Assembly: GCF_000002995.4 (NCBI RefSeq)
Contig: NW_025062476.1
Coordinates: forward strand, 13,164,501 to 13,228,500
DNA from: Brugia malayi
Lineage: Eukaryota; Nematoda; Chromadorea; Rhabditida; Onchocercidae
DNA: 64,000 nt
Reading direction: 5' to 3'
Positions within the stretch are counted from its first letter, which is position 1, and each line of letters opens with the position of its first letter. Below are positions 1,802 through 15,337 of the stretch, in pieces. Under the pieces are notes generated by a model. That model was not told the origin of the DNA, ran no database searches, and saw nothing but the letters and a program-made list of their open reading frames with translations. A program made the translations under genes and the position numbers.

Positions 1802-4800
1802 GTATCCTACTGGATATACCATTGTATCAATAATATATTTAATAATATTCAATTTATACTATTATATTATTCGTATGAAAATTTCTCAATTCAAAAAAAA
1901 AACATTTCATTTCGTCTTTTTTTTTTTTTCTATCCTAGAATTTAGAATTTTATTTGATATAAATAAAAATTTGAAATTTTTTAGTAACATACTTCATCAT
2001 TCATTCAAAATAAGAATTTTTGTGATCATATTTGATTTATAGCAATTAATTGATTGAATAAATTCTAGCATATAGTTAATTAGTTTAATTTATTAATAAT
2101 ATTTATTCCATTTAAATGTAAGAATTTAACCAGTTGATTTAAATCATAATTTAAAATAATTGATTCATTAATATTAAAAAAAATTTTCATTTCATTTAAA
2201 AATGATATTTATTGGATGATAAGAAAATAATTTTGCTAATAAATGAAAAATTGATTATTTAATTTGAAATGATAAGAATATATATGTGTGTTTCTTCTAT
2301 ATCTCTGTCTATGTTTAACATCATCAACTGAATTTCTAGTTGTAAATTGTCATATTTTCATCATCATCATTTTTTTTTTTTAAATCTAATTTAAAAATTC
2401 ACATATTCATATTATTATCATTTGATAATGATAATATTAATTATCAAATACAGCAAATATTCAATTAAATGAAATGCAAAAACAATAGTTTTATTTTTTG
2501 GAATAATTAAAAATAAAACCTTTTTTAAAAAAAAAAAAAAAAATTCTAAATCATTTTTTACATTTATCAATAAATATCAGAAGGCATAGTTTTTTTTTTT
2601 TTTTTCTTTTTTAAATTAAATAGGATTTGATGAAATGTAATAAAAAAAAATAAATTTAATTGAATTTTTTTTTTTTTTTTCAGGCATCAAATTTGTTAGT
2701 TTTGGGTAATGGTTCAACAGCCACCGGTACAGCAGCAATTAGCGCTTCCGCATTGGACATTTCAGCATGCACACAGCAACAACCAAATTCAGTGTTGCGT
2801 GTTATCATCGAGAATATGCTTTATCCGGTAACTCTCGACGTGCTGCATCAGATATTTTCCAGATATGGCAAAGTTCTTCGAATTATTACATTTAATAAAA
2901 ATAGTTAGATTTTTTTTTTCTTTCTTTTTATCCTCATAAATACATATATTTTTTTTATTAATACATCAATATAAATTAATTAGGTATAATTTTTATTTTT
3001 TAAATTATTTTCAAAAAATTTTTTTCAAAGTTTACATCAGTATAAATTAGGTATGGTCTTCTTTTTTGAATTATTTTTAAAAAAAAAAATTTTCCTTTAA
3101 ACTTTACATTAATATAAATTAGGTGTAGTTTCTTTTTTGAATTATTTTTTAAAAATTTTTTTTAAATTTTATATCAATATAAATTAGATGTAATCTTTTT
3201 TTTTTTTTTTTTTAAATTATTTTTTAAATAAAAGATTTCTTTTTTTCTTTTTTTTTTTGGTAACATTTATTGACTTTATTACCTTTTTTTTTTATTACTT
3301 TAATTAAGTAAAATATAATATGGACAATAGCGCTAGAATAAATATTTCATAAACATTCAAAATTAATGTATTTCTTATCAAATAAATTGGCACAGCTGCA
3401 CATATCGGTTTTAGCTATAGCAAATTAGCCTTAACTAATTATTTCTTCTAAATTTTTACAACTGGCTAAGCTATTGATAGGATTAAAATATCTCTGACAT
3501 ATTCAGAAATGAATTTTGAAATGCAAAATATAAAGATGATAACAAATAAAATAATTAATTATTTAATTATACAATTTAGAAAGTTTTTAAAATAATATAA
3601 CAAAATTATTGAAGAATTAACTAAATTTCATTCTATCAATATAATTTTATGAAAATATGTTTCATTAAAAAAAAAAACTCATTAAAAAAAAAAAGAGAAA
3701 TAATTCAATAATTTATATTAGTTTAATTAAATGATTTAAATTGAATCAAATGAATAAATTAATTTTATTGGCGCAAATATTCTTTTTTTTTTTTTATTTA
3801 ACTGAATTTTTTCATTCTTTTTTCTTTTTTCAAATTCTATTTTAGATACATTTCAAGCATTGGTGCAACTTAGTGAAGCTAATAGCGCCCAATTAGCGCG
3901 ACAATCATTAGATGGTCAAAATGTTTACAATGGATGTTGTTGTCTTCGTATTGATTATAGCAAACTTGCAACACTTAATGTGAAATATAATAATGATAAA
4001 AGTCGAGATTATACCAATCCAAATTTACCATCCGGTGAATTAACTCTTGAACAACAGCTTAGTCTTGGTTGGTTTGTTTGTTTGTTTGTTCTTATTTGCT
4101 ATCAAAATTACAATTTATAAATATAACAAATTAGGACGATGAAACTTGACAAAAATTAATTACAATCAATTTCTTTCATAATTAATCTCTGAAAAGTTCA
4201 TCTTCAATAAGTTCAAATTTGATCGAAAATTAATAAACTCTTAACAAATGATTGGTAATTCATTATTTTAACACATTTATAGTATGTAAATGATTATTTT
4301 ACTGGCGTAAAACATTGTAAAACCGTCAAAAATTTATGTATTAAAAAGAAAAAAAAAGATAATAATAAACATATAATTAAAGGTTTAAAATTTGTTTTCT
4401 TTTTTTTTTTTTTTTTTTATAGGTAAGCAATTTTACTTATTTGATTTTATAAAAAAGAAAAGAAATTTTTGTTATTTTCAAATTTCTCTCTATGCAATCC
4501 TTGAAAGTTATTTCTTTTTATAATTTTTTTTTTTTTTTTTAACAATAATTTTACAATTATTATTTTTAAATATTTTTTTTTTTTTTTTTTTTATAGTATC
4601 AGCGGCAACAGGTGGACAAATGGGTCCAACAATTGCATCACTTGTGCAATCACCGTTTGCTTTTCCATTTGGTGCAACAAATCCGCAGTATGCTTTTCAG
4701 CAGCAAGCTGCGGCATTTCCGCAAGCTGGTATATTTTTAAGAAAAAAAAAATTGTACTTTTAATTTTTTTTTTTTTAATTTTCTCTTTCTTTTTTTTTTT

Positions 4801-7800
4801 CAGTATAAATTTGAAAGAAATTTTATAGATGCCTTAGCATCACCAACCGGAATTTCGCCATTTCTTACTGGTTTAACAACAACACTTGCATCCGGTGCAA
4901 CAAGTCCGGTAACAGCTAATGCAGCAATGATTAATGCTACCGCAGCGGCACTTCGTTTTCCACATGTCAATGTTTTAAATATGTCATCCGTTGTACTTGT
5001 CTCCAATCTAAATGAAAATGTTAGTAACATCTTATTTCTAATATTCATTTTTTTTTGTTAATTTATTCAATTTAAATTTTTTTTTTCTTTTTTTTTTTTT
5101 TTTTGCTCTATGCTTTATATATTATTTATTTATTTGCCTCATTTTAATGAATTTCTTACGACTTTCATAATAATTTTCCATTTCTTTTTGTTTTAACAAA
5201 AATATTAAACACAAATTATAACAATTTTTTTTTTAAAAAGTTAATTCAAGTTTAATCAATTATTATATTTTAAAAAAGAAGAATAATATAGTATCTATTT
5301 TTTTTTATATCAAAATTTTTTTTTTTTTTGTTTTTAATAAATAAATCATTAATTAATTTTTTTTTTCAAACTTTTTGTCCTTTTTTTTCTTTTTTTTGAT
5401 TTATTTTTCCTTTCTTTTTTTTTTTTTTTAAATTTATTGCTCTAAACTATCCTACTTTTTGTTTTCCCTATAAAATAAACATTATTATCAATTTTTTTTT
5501 CCCCTTACTTTCTAGTTAATTTTTTTTTTTTTTAATTTTAATTTTTTAAATTTTTCTATTCACACATTAAATAGAAGGAGACAAGGTGACACAGTGACAC
5601 ACACACACACACATACACACTATCTCTGTCCTATTTTCAGAAGGTCACGCCAGATGCTCTCTTCACTCTTTTCGGTACGTATTGCTTGTTTCTCTTTCCT
5701 ACTTTTTTTTTCTTTTTTTTTTTTTTTTCATTTTAAAAATTTAAATAACATTTAAAATACATATATAATTTGAGGAATTATACTAAACAATGCAAAATTA
5801 ATTAGATATATTTGATTGATTGTTAAAAAAATTTTTTTTTATTAGCTTTTTTAATGTATTATATTTCATTGCTTAAATAAATTAATAAAATTATATTTTA
5901 AAATTATATTTATATTTCAGGATCTGTTAGCTTTATCATTTTCAATTAAAAATATAATATATCTAATCTATTCACTTAAATGCTAATGAAATATTATTTA
6001 TTGTAAAACTTTTTGTAATAATTTTATAGCAAAAAAAAAAAAAAAGAAAAAACTAAAAATTAAAAATGGAAGAGAAAAGAAATAAATTTCAAGAAATAAT
6101 TTAATTTAAAGAATTGTTTAAAAAGAAAAAAAAAAAAAAAGAAAACGAGAGAGAGAGAGAGAGGAGAAAAATTCTAATTTTTAGTATAAATGCAGAAAAG
6201 AAAAATGCATAAAATGGTTAAAATTGTTTTTTTTTTTTTTTTTTTTTAAATTAAGATTTAAACTTTCAGAATTTTTTTTTTCTTATCCCTTTCTATCCTG
6301 TTTCTCTTTCTCTCCCTCTCTCCCTCCCTCTCTCTCTCTCTCTCTTTCTCCCCTTCTTTAACCATTATTCCTTTTTATTAAAATTTTTTTTTTTTTTTTG
6401 AATTATTAAACAAAATGCTACACAGATCCTGAATTATTATTACACTATCAAAAAAAAAACATACATATTAGCAATGTAAAATTAAAATTTTTTTTTTTTT
6501 TTTTAAAAATGAAAACTTCAAAAAAAAAAAAAGGAAAGCAAAAACTTTTTTCTTTAAAAATATGCTTACTATCATTTTCTATATTCTAATTTCCCCTTTT
6601 TTTTTTCTCTCTTTTAATCCTATCAAACAAAAATGTAAATAAAATTAAGCCAATTTTTTTAAAACTTTCATAAATTACCAAAAAACAAAAAAACTTTTCA
6701 CTTTTTTCTTTTTTCTTTTTTTCCATTTCTTTATGTTTCATTGATAGATAAATGCTAATTACTTTTCAAATAGCGCCAAAAAAATTTTTTCCCTTTTTTT
6801 CTTTTTTTTTTTTTTACTTTCTTTTTGTAATTATAGCAAAATACTATTGCTTTGTTCAACATTTTTTTTTTTTTTATATTTTATTAAATTTCAACAAAAA
6901 AAGAAAAAAAAAATGAAAAAAAAGTTATTGATAAAAAAAAAAGAGAGAGAGAGAGAAAAAAAAGAATTTTAATTTTTTTTTTTTTTAAATTTTGAAACTA
7001 AATTGAAATTCATGCAATCGCTTCTTTTTTTTTTTTTTTTTTTTGATCATTTTATTATTATCAAAATATTTATTATTAATGTAAACAAACTCTCAGTACT
7101 CCTTTCAAATGATATATATATTTAATATAGAAATTAAAAACTTTTTTATTCTAAATTTTTTGCATTTTTTTTTTTTTAAATTTTTGTTACTTTTTTTTTC
7201 TTTCTTTTTCTTACACATGAATGAATATTAATAAATAAAAAAGTTTTTTTTTTTTGAAAAAAACAAAATTTGAAATTATTTGTTGATAAAAGATATTTGT
7301 TTGTTTGTTTGTTTTTTCCTTTTTATTTATTTTCAGGTGTATATGGTGATGTACATCGAGTTAAAATTCTTTTCAATAAGAAAGATAATGCATTAATACA
7401 ATATGCTGAACCACAACAAGCACAACTTGGTTTATTTTTTCATTTTTTACTCTTTTTTTGTTGTTAAAAATTTTAAATCTTTATTTTTAATTACTGTTTA
7501 ATAGGAATTATAATATAATGTAACCTGAAATTGAATTATCATCAATAATTTAAATTACTATTAATAGAAATTGATCGTAAATTTAATTTGAATTATCATC
7601 AATAATTTTTATTTTATTTAATGATAAAATCAACGATTTGAGGCATTTCTCTTTCCCTTCTTTTTAGTCTTTGTTTGAAAATAATTCCAATTTAAGAACA
7701 AAAAAAAAAAAACTTTTTTTTTCCTTTTATTTTATAGTTAAATTGATTTGACACATAAATTTACCATTGTATGCTTACTTTTTCATTCTAAAATTAGTCA

Positions 7801-10635
7801 TTCGTTTGTCAACAATTATTTATTTATTTATTTTTTTTTTTCTGATTCTGTTTTTATATTCGATTGTTTTCTTTTATTATTATTAATTATTATTACTATT
7901 ATTGTCCTTTTTTTTTTTTTTTTTCGTTTTATAGGAATTATTACTTATAAATTTTAAAAAAAGAAAAAAAAAAATTTTTGAAAAGGATGAAGTAATTACC
8001 CATAATTTTTCCACAATTTAAAATATCTTCCATCTTTCCTCTTCTATTATCATTAGCTATAATCAATCATTCTATTAAATATTCCTCTACAACTAATATT
8101 GCTGCAATGTGAAGGAATATTTTTTTTACGTATGCGCAAATAATATGCGCAAAAGTCGCAGTATATTTTAGATTCAAATAGATATGAAAATTTTTTTTTT
8201 TTTATCAATTCTATCCCTCGGTTCACTTTTCTCTCTCTCCCTCTTCCTCTCTGTCCCTCTGAATCCTTTTTTCTCTCTTTGAAATACATTTTTTGGATTA
8301 TTTTATTCTCCTTTCACTCCCTCCTTCTCCCTTTCTCTCTCTCTCTCTCTTATCAAATTAAAATAATCATTCAATTCCGTCAATAATATTAATGAAATTC
8401 TGAAAGTTATGTAGAATTTTTTTTTGCGGAAAAATGAAAAAATGAAACAAAAAATTTTTTTTTTAAATATAAATTTTGCTTTTTTCTCTCTCATCTTTTA
8501 TATTTCAAAAATTTTTTTTTTTCTTTTCTATTTATGAAGAAAAAAAAAAGAAAGAAAATGATTTTTTGTAATTTTTAAAAGTTACTTAAAAATTATTCAT
8601 TCTTTTTCAACTATTCCAATCATAATCTAACTTCAAAACTGATATTATATATTCAAAAATAGTCCTAATCACTTATCTTTATTCAAATTTAAAAAAAAAA
8701 TTTTTTTATAATTAGCAAAGAGCGAAAGTATCATTAGATTTACTTTTTTTCATTAGATTAAGTTTTAATATTTCATTAGAAAACATTGTAACACTTTAAG
8801 TTTTGATATCAAATTAAAAAGAAAAAAAATGATATTTAATTTGTGATTTCAAACTTTAATATTTGATTTTTAATCCCAAAAAAAAAAAAAAACAACGCCA
8901 AATTTGTAGTTTTAAATTTTTTTTTTTTTTTTTAAAGAATTAAATTATGATACCAATTTAAAATTTTAGTATCAAATTAATTCAAATTAATTTTTTCAGC
9001 TATTCAACATCTCGATAAAGTCCGCTGGCATGATAAGCAAATACGTGTTGCAACATCAAAACATAGTAATGTTCAAATGCCAAAAGAAGGTAATTACGTG
9101 TTCGTATGCGTTTACGTGTACGTACGTACGTGTGTGTGTGTGCACATTTGAATATATACGTGTACTGAATGTTATTTTTGTAAACTTCTAAATTGTTTAT
9201 TTATATCAATTATTTAAAAAAAAAAAAAAAAAGAAAGTCTATTGATGTGACACGATGTCATTGCAGGAATTTATTCAAGAAATTGATTTTTTAATTTTAT
9301 CCTTAATATTTGTCCAAAAAAGAAAAAAAAAAAAAACAAAGAAAAATAAATGAAAGAATCAAAAAAGGCAAAATAAAAAATCTTTCATTTCATCTTTCCT
9401 TTCACCCTCTCTCTCTCTCTCTGTGTTTTAAAAAAAAAATGAACTCAAAAGAAATTTATAAAATTATTCTAGAAAAAGAAAAAAAACACTTATTTAAAGA
9501 AAAAACTGTTTGAAAAAGAAAAAAAATAATTTTAATTAATGAAAAGTTTTTTTTTTTTTTTGAATAAATTTTTTAAAGAATAACTCATTTTTTTTTTTTT
9601 TTTTTTTTCAGGAATAACCGATTACAAAATAAAAAAAGAAAAAAAAAAAAACATAATTATGCATAATTAAATAATTATTTTTGAGGACAACCGGATGCTG
9701 GCTTAACACGTGATTACTCTCAATCATCATTACATCGTTTCAAGAAACCTGGTAGCAAAAATTATTTAAATATTTATCCGCCAAGTTCAACACTTCATCT
9801 TTCAAATATTCCACCAAATATTACGGAGGAATTTCTTACAAATGCTTTTGAACAACATGGCTATATCCCTAAAGGCTTTAAATTTTTCCCGTTTGTTTTT
9901 ATTATTATTATTATTATTAATTTCCTATTAATTAATTTCTTATTAATTTTTACTATTATTCATATTAATTAATTTTTTATTAGTCAAATTATTGTTAACT
10001 TTTATTGTTCTTATTAATTAATTTCTCATTAATTTTTATTATTATTCATGTTAATTAATTTCTTACTAATTGAATTATTGTTAATTTTTTTATTATTCAT
10101 ATCAATTAATTTCTTGTTAATTTTTATTATTTATTTTAATATTGATATTTTTTAATAAAACCATCGATTATATCTAATCTAATGGAAAATTTTTGAAACA
10201 TTTTAATTAAATTTGAATAAAATTTTGCATTTTTTTTTTTTCTTATTTTTTGTAATAATTTCATTTTACAATAATGCATTTTTTTTTTCTTATTTTTACA
10301 ATAATTTCAAATGTGAAATTAATTGATTATAATAAATATGAAATAAAATGAAATAAATATAAAATAAAAAATATAAATATGAAAAGAAAAAAAAAAATAA
10401 AACATAATTTATAATAAGTATGAAATGAAATAAAAAAAAAAAAATAAATTTTATGCAAATTTTTTTTTTTTTTTTTTTTTTTTATTTTTTATTTTTTTTT
10501 AGAAAGGATCATAAAATGGCTTTGCTACAATTAAACGATGTGGAAACAGCGATTAATGCACTAATCGAAATGCATAATTTTAAACTAGCCGAAAATGCAC
10601 ATCTTCGGGTATCATTCTCAAAAAGTGGTATATGA
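732..10635 (+). CDS. ptb-1: Polypyrimidine tract-binding protein (hnRNP I / PTB), 5'-partial
   Basis: RNA-binding splicing regulator that binds CU-rich RNA in the nucleus. Exons: 732-1801, 2684-2903, 3846-4067, 4597-4728, 4829-5019, 5641-5674, 7337-7429, 9000-9089, 9686-9890, 10503-10635. Phases agree at every junction, giving 795 visible residues to TGA. RRM2 starts at [20 protein letters not shown] and ends near [23 protein letters not shown]3 starts at [20 protein letters not shown] and continues through [20 protein letters not shown]. The linker [20 protein letters not shown] leads into RRM4, which ends [10 protein letters not shown]. All match animal PTB closely. RRM1 is not in the window and is presumably upstream. 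The first exon is open from 626 with no in-frame ATG before 1376; the only AG in that stretch is at 730-731, so it is taken as an internal exon. AATAAA lies at 10919-10924. Confidence 0.93.
2941..3240 (+). repeat. Degenerate tandem repeat, about 60-65 bp, about 4 copies
   Basis: Repeated ATCAATATAAATTAGGT followed by a T-run and AAATTATTTT, in the PTB intron between the two halves of RRM2. Copies differ mainly in homopolymer length. Confidence 0.6.
5641..5674 (+). other. 34-nt microexon opening RRM3 of PTB
   Basis: Encodes [11 protein letters not shown] plus the first base of a Gly codon. The acceptor is CTATTTTCAG, preceded by a short CA repeat and CTATCTCTGTCC; the donor GTACGT is followed by TTTCTCTTTCC. 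The exon length is 3n+1, so skipping it shifts the frame. Splicing 5019 directly to 7337 gives a stop at 7394-7396, upstream of four further junctions. Vertebrate PTBP1 exon 11 and PTBP2 exon 10 are also 34 nt, lie at the same point in RRM3 and mediate autoregulation through decay of the skipped mRNA. Confidence 0.85.
6298..6353 (+). repeat. CU-rich tract downstream of the PTB microexon
   Basis: Dense CTCTCT/CCCTC/TTTCTC run in the intron 5675-7336, on the transcribed strand. It is of the type PTB itself binds (UCUU, CUCUCU). Long U runs and further UC stretches lie on both sides of the exon. Confidence 0.6.
9895..10150 (+). repeat. Degenerate ATTAATT/TATTATT intronic repeat in PTB
   Basis: Several imperfect copies of TTAATTAATTTCTTATTAATTTTTATTATTATTCAT-like sequence in the intron before the last exon. 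No other feature seen there. Confidence 0.45.
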
Positions 10636-13600
10636 AAAAGTAAACAAATTAATCTTTTCTTTCTTTTTAATTATTATCATTTTTGTAATTGGCATAAAAT
10701 TAATTTCGTTTTGTTATCAGTGAAAGATAAGCATTTTATCATTTATTGTTTTTTTTTTTTGATTTTTGTTATTTAAAAAAGAAAAAAAAAAGAAAATTTT
10801 ATCATTTTTCTGTTTATTTTTTGCAATGTACCCAACGTTTCCCTTTTTTTTCTTCTCTCTCTCTCTCTCTCTCTTTTGTCCTCCTTCCCTTTTATTTATT
10901 TATTTATTTATTTTTTGAAATAAAAAATATTTTCTTTTTTGATAAATATTGATTTTAAAAAAATGAAAAAAGATGATAGATGAACTGATGAAAATATATT
11001 TAATGAAATTATTTGATTTAATTTAATTTTTTTCACTTTGTTTTCATTTTTTCTTTCTTTCTCTTAAAATTATCATCAAAATTTCTCTCTCTCTCTCTTT
11101 TTTTTTCAATTTTATTTTGTATTCATCTAAACTATTAATTGAATTTATCATAGAAATTATCATTTGGAATTTATTATCATTTATCAAAATGTATCGGAAT
11201 GTCCTTTTTATGATGACCAATTTTAAATTTTTGTTTTTTTTTTTCTTTTTATTTTTTTTTTTATTCATGTTTTTTTACATATTAATTTGATAAAAAAAAA
11301 ACAAAAAAAAAAAAAAACAAAAAAACAAAAACAAAAAAAAGAAGAGAAATGCAATTCCAATATTAAATAATTAATTCCTAATATTCCGATTTACAATTTT
11401 GTTTTTTTTTTTTCTTCGTCATTTTTCTAAATTTTTATTTACATTTATTTATAAATAATAAAATGGATAATATACATTTTGAAATTTCATCGAATTTGTT
11501 TTTTCTTAATCAACTAAATTTGCATATTTAATAGAATATTTTAAGACAAAAAAAAAAAAAAAATTTACAATTAAATTTAAATGAAAAAAAAAAAAAAATA
11601 TTTGATGCAAATTCAATCTTATTTAACATTACGTGAAATGTTTCAGCGTAAATAAAATTGCATTATTATTTCATTTTGGTTTGTCATTGATACATTTTTA
11701 TGATATCATTAACCCACGTCAATAATAAATAAAATTGCTACTGCTAAAAAAATTTAATTTTCTTTCAATTCCAATTTTTTTTTTTTTAAAAAAAAAATTA
11801 CGTTATGAAATGTAATTAGGATAAATTTAATTTTCTTTCAATTAATTCCAATTTTCTTAAATTATGAAATGTAATTAAGATAAATTCAATTTTTCTTTCA
11901 ATTAATTTCAATTTTTTTTTTTTTTTTGTTTCAATTAATTTTTTCTCTCAATTAATTTCAATTGAATTAAGTTATATATATATTTGAATTAAGTAAAGAA
12001 GTTTTTTTTTTTTAAAATAATCTTTCTTTCTTTCTTTCTTTGTTCTGTTTCATTCATAAACGAAATTAATTTATTCACTGGAATTGAACAAAAATAAATT
12101 GTTAAAATTTTTTAATTAAATTTTCTTTAGTTAAACATTTTAAAAATTTGTTTTTCATCCTTCTAAAACAAAAAAAAATATTCTTTCACACACATACATA
12201 TGTTGTTAAATTTTTGATTATTAAATTTTTTAAAATTATTGAATTTCTTTTTATATTCAAAAAGCATTTGCTATTATCTTCAAAATGAAATTACATGCAG
12301 TTTATTTTAACTTTCTCATTGAACAAAATGAATTCTGTGAAATTTTCAGGCTAATAATCAAACAGAATTTTTCTTTTTAAAAAAATTTTAACCAATAAAA
12401 TATTTGGAAAATTTTTACAATAAAATCTATTTCATTCATTTTCTTTCCAAATAAATAACTATTAGTATTATTATCATCATCAATTATTCGATTATAATTG
12501 ATTTAAAACGAAAAAAAAAAAAAAAAGAAAGCCATTTTCAAATGCCATTTTATGCAAATTAAAAATTCGCTCATTGCATATTTGATGTCATTGAAATTAA
12601 AATAGAAATTGTAATTGACAGATTTGAAATGTGATATTTTATTTTATTTGATCGTCTTTTTTTCACAAAAAAAAAAGAAGTAATTGAATTTGTAATTTTT
12701 GAATTTTTTTTTTTTTCTTTGGTAAAAGGAAAAAAAAAATTTCACTAAATTGAAATTATTTGAAATACACTTATTGCTTTTTTTTTGCGTTCATTCTTTT
12801 TTTTTTATATATTTGTTTTGTATAAATTTAATTTTACAAAAAAAAAAAGAAAAAAAAAAAAAGACAATAGCAAAGATATGGAAATATTTTTTTCTTAATT
12901 TTTTGAGTGAAATTTTTAATATGTTTTTATGCATTTTATATTTCATATTTTAGTATACTGTGTGTTATTTAGTAGCATACTTTTAATTTATTAAAGAAAT
13001 TGTAATATATTTAAAATTAGTAGAACTGATTTCAAAAACAAATTTTAAATTTTTCCGTGATGAAAAACAAAAAAAAAAAAAGAAGGTAAAATTTGTTTTT
13101 CATTTTCAACTTATTATTCAAAGCTGTTCATTTAGATAATCAGAAAAAAAAAATTGTAATTATAAATTTATTTTTTCTTATTGCTTGATTTCCTTTTTTT
13201 TTTTTTTTTTTTTCTAGAAAATACATTCCTTCTAAATGGCATAAATTTCTAAAATATTAATTTCTGCAAATTTTGTTTAAAAAATTGAAATTTAAATTGT
13301 GGAAGATATTTAATTAAATATGAATTTAAATTGTAAGTGAAAATTTAATCAAATTTCCAATTTCAACTAATATATCCTTCAATAATTTTGTTTTTTTTGT
13401 TTTGTTTTCAAGGAAACGAAGGAAAAGTGTTGCAAATGAAAATGATTTAAAAAAGTAGTGGTAGTAAAATTTAATTCATTCGAATAGATCAAATGAAGTA
13501 AAATATTGATGGAAACAAATCATTTTATCAGTTGATCATTTCAATGCGGGTTTATCACTCATTATCACTTTTTTTAGCTTATCATCATTTATTGCTATTT

Positions 13601-15104: not shown

Positions 15105-15122
15105 TGTATGTGTGTGTGTGCG

Positions 15123-15187
<65 letters not shown>

Positions 15188-15306
15188 GTACTTTTGTGTG
15201 TGTGTGTATGTGTATGTGTGTGTGTGTGTATGTGTATGTGTGTACTTTTGTGTGTGTGTGTGTATGTGTATGTTTGTGTGTGTGTGTATGTGTATGTGTG
15301 TATTTT

Positions 15307-15337
<31 letters not shown>

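Follow-up and report, generated by a model that had tools for sequence, protein, structure and literature searches.

The window analysed here, a stretch of 64,000 nt from Brugia malayi that forms part of a 14.2 Mb contig in a genome of 86.8 Mb, carries the 3' part of a PTB gene on the + strand of its first 10.6 kb. The 34-nt exon at 5641-5674 of this gene is very probably (about 0.85) the filarial orthologue of the 'essential' PTB exon that mediates autoregulation, known as PTBP1 exon 11, PTBP2 exon 10 and C. elegans ptb-1 exon 11; abundant PTB would repress this exon, and the frame-shifted mRNA would be removed by nonsense-mediated decay (NMD). The switch itself is already published, and the window looks like adding a filarial member to it, so that the published likeness between nematodes and mammals is extended to filarial worms. 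The gene, the exon, its frame, the stop, an excess of PTB motifs within the exon and a UPF1-like gene are directly observed in this genome.

Skipping, PTB dependence and decay are taken over from C. elegans and mammals, and are presumed to operate in the same way in the filarial species. When PTB is scarce, exon 5641-5674 would be included and the full-length protein made. Abundant PTB would bind pyrimidine motifs both in and beside the exon and cause it to be skipped; the resulting frameshift would end translation at 7394-7396, early in RRM3, and decay of the frame-shifted mRNA through NMD would close a negative feedback loop.

The 34-nt exon and the consequence of its omission

Nine coding exons, modelled between 2684 and 10635, encode 439 residues comprising RRM2, RRM3 and RRM4 with zero internal stops. 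The orthology of the host gene is evident from the best PDB matches of its RRM3-4 region, which are PTBP1 and PTBP2 (E 7e-82 to 5e-77), and from the six best public proteins, all of them filarial PTBs with 96-99% identity (two of Acanthocheilonema, two of Dirofilaria, one each of Cercopithifilaria and Litomosoides; best 120 of 3889 matches). A partial Wuchereria protein among the matches listed is 99% identical across 58% of the query. A search of the genome for a second PTB copy gave four matches, every one of which is an exon of the present gene. The features of the model are as follows.

1802..2683, +, intron before the RRM2 exons, phase 0 (GTATCC...TTTTTCAG)
2684..2903, +, PTB exon, RRM2 start (spliced translation; protein matches PF11835 and PF13893)
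3846..4067, +, PTB exon, remainder of RRM2 (spliced model)
4597..4728, +, PTB exon, linker (spliced model)
4829..5019, +, PTB exon directly before the 34-nt exon (donor AAT/GTTAGT; the W. bancrofti P0047 and L. loa P0049 proteins end here)
5020..5640, +, upstream intron, 621 nt (44-nt AG-free zone; proximal UAUCUCUGUCCUAUUUUCAG)
5641..5674, +, 34-nt frame-shifting exon, putative cassette, opens RRM3 (contains GCUCUCUUCACUCUUUUC)
5675..7336, +, downstream intron, 1662 nt (starts GTACGT; UUUCUCUUUCC within 30 nt; CU tracts 6298-6353)
7337..7429, +, following PTB exon, RRM3 (other reading frame if the 34-nt exon is skipped)
7394..7396, +, premature TAA, in frame only upon skipping of the 34-nt exon
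9000..9089, +, PTB exon, RRM3 end (spliced model)
9686..9890, +, PTB exon, linker and RRM4 start (unusual acceptor GAG)
10503..10635, +, final PTB coding exon, normal stop TGA at 10633-10635 (spliced model)

The exon at 5641-5674 codes for 11 residues and the first base of the codon for G; it is preceded by ATTTTCAG and followed by GTACGT. It lies at the start of RRM3, in the same phase as the known PTB exons, given the mammalian exon boundaries assumed here. A sequence-only reading of the same DNA had proposed both this exon, as the one opening RRM3, and a stop at 7394-7396 with junctions downstream as the result of its omission. The former is confirmed by the spliced model and by the alignment of RRM3-4 to human PTBP1 (1qm9), which is gapless (E 7e-82) and in which the exon peptide faces RVTPQSLFILF. 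The latter also holds, as skipping joins 5019 to 7337 and shifts the frame to a TAA at 7394-7396, beyond which three junctions follow at 33, 123 and 328 nt. NMD in C. elegans relies less on exon junctions than mammalian NMD, and therefore little weight is placed on these three junctions. Three stretches of the genome match UPF1_Zn_bind (best E 3e-29) and mark a UPF1-like gene. A tandem acceptor, CAGAAG, is present at 5638-5643 of the window and makes a 3-nt shift of the exon start possible; the second Acanthocheilonema model (P0002) deviates at the tandem-acceptor residue (NENV-VTPD).

The size of 34 nt is that of the known PTB exons (PMC4876481, PMC1940037). Tomioka et al. (2016, PMC4876481) used RT-PCR on NMD mutants and ptb-1 mutants to demonstrate skipping of C. 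elegans ptb-1 exon 11, which depends on PTB-1 itself, and they describe the exon as conserved in position, size and autoregulatory role from mammals to C. elegans. The filarial exon shares with it the nematode PTB gene, the 34-nt length, the place in RRM3 and a frameshift with a premature stop upon skipping, and the exon layout of the filarial gene suggests forms with and without RRM1, which arise from two promoters in C. elegans. The difference is one of evidence, RT-PCR in mutants there and exon anatomy alone here. The sequence-only reading had inferred that a feedback switch exists in this nematode; the inference is supported by the experiments in C. elegans and, for the filarial species, by the likeness of anatomy, and it is right for C. 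elegans and likely for the filarial species, but not new, because the C. elegans switch had been published by Tomioka et al.

The vertebrate PTBP1 exon 11 and PTBP2 exon 10 are likewise 34 nt long, occupy the same place in RRM3 and lead through a frameshift to NMD, skipping and decay having been shown there. Exon 10 of the paralogue ROD1 (PTBP3), apparently the same exon, gave no expressed sequence tag (EST) evidence of skipping (PMC1940037), so the length and position of an exon do not by themselves identify a regulated one. Among less related systems, the essential exons of C. elegans fubl-1 and fubl-3 are also non-triplet, with skipping that is unproductive and autoregulated, but these are unrelated KH-domain genes (PMC13247117). 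A literature search on filarial PTB splicing returned no mention of Brugia malayi in the 10 papers listed of 905 matches, and a narrower one on the nematode switch gave PMC4876481 as its sole match. The PTB-related passages of PMC4379411, PMC2689934, PMC2768976 and PMC3302860 are silent on this exon.

PTB motifs within the exon

The motif cluster that stands out in this gene lies inside the 34-nt exon and had gone unmentioned in the sequence-only reading. UCUU and CUCUCU are stated to be core PTB motifs (PMC1940037), and the set of four tetramers counted here (UCUU, UCUC, CUCU and UUCU) is a simplification of known PTB sites. Six such motifs occur in the 34 nt of the exon, whereas the other internal coding exons of the model, seven in number, have 0-2.4 per 100 nt. 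When synonymous codons were drawn according to the usage of the gene, a mean of 0.83 motifs was expected (P 0.005), and exclusion of the exon from the codon-usage table lowered this mean to 0.72 (P 0.002); thus, the exonic motifs exceed the expectation. Of the 817 in-frame 34-nt windows of the modelled coding sequence, 794 do not overlap the exon; none of these gave a P as low and none contained six motifs, which makes the exon the densest stretch of PTB motifs in that sequence. The 794 windows extend into the long open frame that precedes 1801, which was taken with a provisional start.

The same analysis was applied to Ptbp1, using the partial cDNA, probably that of mouse, printed in the construct table of PMC12665102, in which the exon was placed from boundaries assumed by us. 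The exon stretch of this cDNA similarly contains PTB-like motifs, six against a mean expectation of 1.5 (P 0.024), and none of the 349 other windows is as extreme. The filarial and Ptbp1 exons are identical at 22 of 34 bases.

The exonic motif excess is the part of the present account that could be new. It suggests a testable reason for the likeness between nematodes and mammals, namely that the exon at the start of RRM3 also resembles a PTB target. Putative CU-rich sites fall within the LF-x-LF codons, as CUCUCUUC-A-CUCUUUUCG in the worm and CUCUUUAUUCUCUUCG in the mammal. A tentative extension, which is judged to have somewhat less than an even chance of being correct, is that the PTB switch has at its core an exonic cis-element much more ancient than the introns around it. 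The LF-x-LF codons of RRM3 would have been kept as CU-rich PTB sites, so that one stretch would both encode part of the RNA-binding fold and allow its own exon to be repressed, whereas the distance of the branch point and the sequence of the introns would have been replaced. Should the exonic motifs turn out to be required, that would help to choose between a loop inherited from the ancestor of nematodes and vertebrates and one that re-evolved on an old exon boundary.

Flanking introns and competing explanations

The nine modelled introns measure 1662, 1570, 942, 882, 621, 612, 596, 529 and 100 nt. The description of both introns flanking the 34-nt exon as unusually long, given in the sequence-only reading, is thus correct for the downstream intron, the longest of the nine, but not for the upstream one, which ranks fifth. 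Their content was compared with a genomic background of 18 stretches of 10 kb taken at round coordinates on both strands, for which annotated introns would be a better control, a CU tract being defined as at least 8 pyrimidines including at least 3 C. CU tracts occupy 11.1% of the bases of the upstream intron, a value equalled or exceeded by a fraction of 0.014 of 576 same-length genomic windows, and 13.2% of the downstream intron, which none of 216 windows attains. PTB-like tetramers are also dense in the downstream intron, where a fraction of 0.014 of the 216 windows reaches the observed value. Within 60 nt of the exon, two PTB motifs are found upstream and six downstream.

The claim that these introns are filled with U/CU tracts is therefore borne out in part, by the CU-tract measure for both of them but by the tetramer measure for the downstream one only, and other introns are comparably rich. 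CU tracts make up 11.0% of intron 7430-8999 and 23.0% of the 100-nt intron 4729-4828, as against 0-4.9% of the other five; hence the tracts are a feature of the middle of the gene and are not specific to the 34-nt exon. The CUCUCU run at 6298-6353, to which attention had been drawn, is present, but it lies 624 nt from the exon, and runs of at least four CT units recur at 8335-8350 and 10855-10874; its role as a regulatory site specific to the exon is not supported.

In mammals, the regulated exons (PTB exon 11, nPTB exon 10 and ROD1 exon 2) are preceded by extended AG-free zones, 168 nt long in the case of ROD1 exon 2, and the branch point of nPTB (PTBP2) exon 10 is predicted 389 nt upstream (Spellman et al. 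2007, PMC1940037). The filarial exon differs from PTBP1 and PTBP2 in this respect, as its AG-free zone is just 44 nt. A distant branch point is not supported here; a zone of 44 nt falls within the range of 9 to 122 nt that the gene's eight remaining introns show, so the mammalian layout is absent. As nematodes have no known requirement for a long AG-free zone, this feature is not taken as a defining one for their exon.

Several observations weigh against an autoregulatory exon. The case for the filarial species is built on genomic sequence, and the motif tests are post hoc, concern one exon in one gene family, and are counts that are silent on binding. The acceptor ATTTTCAG of the 34-nt exon agrees with that of the next exon at 8 of 8 nt and for this reason does not look weak, the upstream intron is unexceptional in its tetramers (a fraction of 0.18 of the 576 windows reaches its value), and the 60 nt on either side of the exon are no richer in motifs than those around exon 4829-5019 (6.7 per 100 nt in both cases). 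The protein tail expected from the shifted frame, sought in public databases, is absent from the three proteins listed of four candidates, although this is a weak argument, as an NMD target need not leave a protein. Even in C. elegans the effect is modest, the percentage spliced in passing from 77.6 to 65.2 without NMD (PMC4876481), and an earlier array study lists a ptb-1 event, not further specified in the excerpted Table 3, as 'PTC no' and almost unchanged in smg-1 embryos, at 0.06 (PMC2265522).

An alternative view is that the 34-nt exon is an ancient boundary only, constitutive in filaria as ROD1/PTBP3 exon 10 seems to be, with the CU-rich introns representing ordinary low-complexity sequence of an AT-rich genome. 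ROD1 exon 10, taken as equivalent and without EST evidence of skipping as noted above, has an apparently conventional branch point 21 nt upstream (PMC1940037), and the 44-nt zone of the filarial exon resembles this conventional acceptor region rather than those of the regulated mammalian exons; the CU tracts in introns away from the exon agree with it as well. However, the motif excess within the exon goes beyond codon usage, and another nematode, C. elegans, has regulated skipping, so that a purely constitutive exon is considered unlikely.

Control of skipping by another factor, with the PTB feedback being indirect, would be very improbable. An hnRNP L-like protein acting on the CA repeat at 5597-5613 is an example, as hnRNP L binds CA repeats and this repeat, which stops 27 nt before the exon, is the sole + strand CA run of at least five units in the window. 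Nevertheless, CA/TG runs occur five times in 180 kb of sampled genome and its placement may therefore be due to chance, and the C. elegans exon relies on PTB-1 itself. Direct repression of exon 5641-5674 by PTB thus remains the favoured explanation.

Protein models and the wider PTB gene

Of 120 listed homologues, 115 have a peptide that corresponds to the exon and stands in register ahead of GVYGDV (108 of the 112 with a VSNL motif and 7 of the 8 without). The Wuchereria (P0047) and Loa (P0049) proteins terminate precisely at NLNEN. Litomosoides P0006 has a short, foreign, intron-like stretch, Thelazia P0008 a longer insert that apparently contains the exon in a shifted frame (RQMLSSLFS), and Syphacia P0022 lacks the entire region. 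Onchocerca flexuosa P0121, one of the three proteins listed in the separate search for the shifted-frame tail, departs at NLNEN, at the same exon end, into unrelated sequence, and was rejected as a skipped isoform for that reason. The filarial and related models lacking the exon have the look of failed gene predictions where an exon is small. They are consistent with an exon boundary here in other filariae, are uninformative on regulation, and call for caution among annotators, as several such PTB models break at this exon. A search of DNA collections for PTB relatives (alignment A1) yielded 79 pattern matches in viral_contigs and 221 in genome_contigs, with zero relatives among them.

RRM1 lies outside the nine modelled exons. 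The RRM1 of C. elegans PTB-1, used as a query, gave three exon-like matches with 48%, 50% and 59% identity on the + strand about 38 kb upstream of the window, at L036 1498-2513 (G000:C136:13125992-13127007). Since these likely RRM1 exons sit on the same strand, the whole PTB gene of this worm is probably about 49 kb long. It probably has two starts, one far upstream that includes RRM1 and one inside the window that does not, in the manner of C. elegans ptb-1a and ptb-1b. The window's open frame lacking RRM1 may represent this second start, resembling C. elegans PTB-1b, the product of an alternative promoter (PMC4876481).

Further splice sites of the gene are of note. The productive acceptor of exon 9686-9890 is an unusual TTTTTGAG, and a long T tract with a CAG 74 nt before it (window 9609-9685) would place the exon start at 9612 and lead to an in-frame stop; this site is possibly a second unproductive choice in the PTB gene, or a sequence or model error. 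A T tract with CAG at window 4790-4829 (exon start 4804) similarly precedes the productive TTTTATAG (start 4829) by 25 nt, and its use would give an immediate stop (V-stop). Within intron 4068-4596, a T tract and ATAG followed by GTAAGC at 4400-4427 are arranged like a splice site for recursive splicing (zero-length exon); this pattern is the sole + strand match in the window, with none on the other strand, and may be due to chance. Beyond the gene, seven TG repeats of at least five units are clustered at 15109-15325 of the window.
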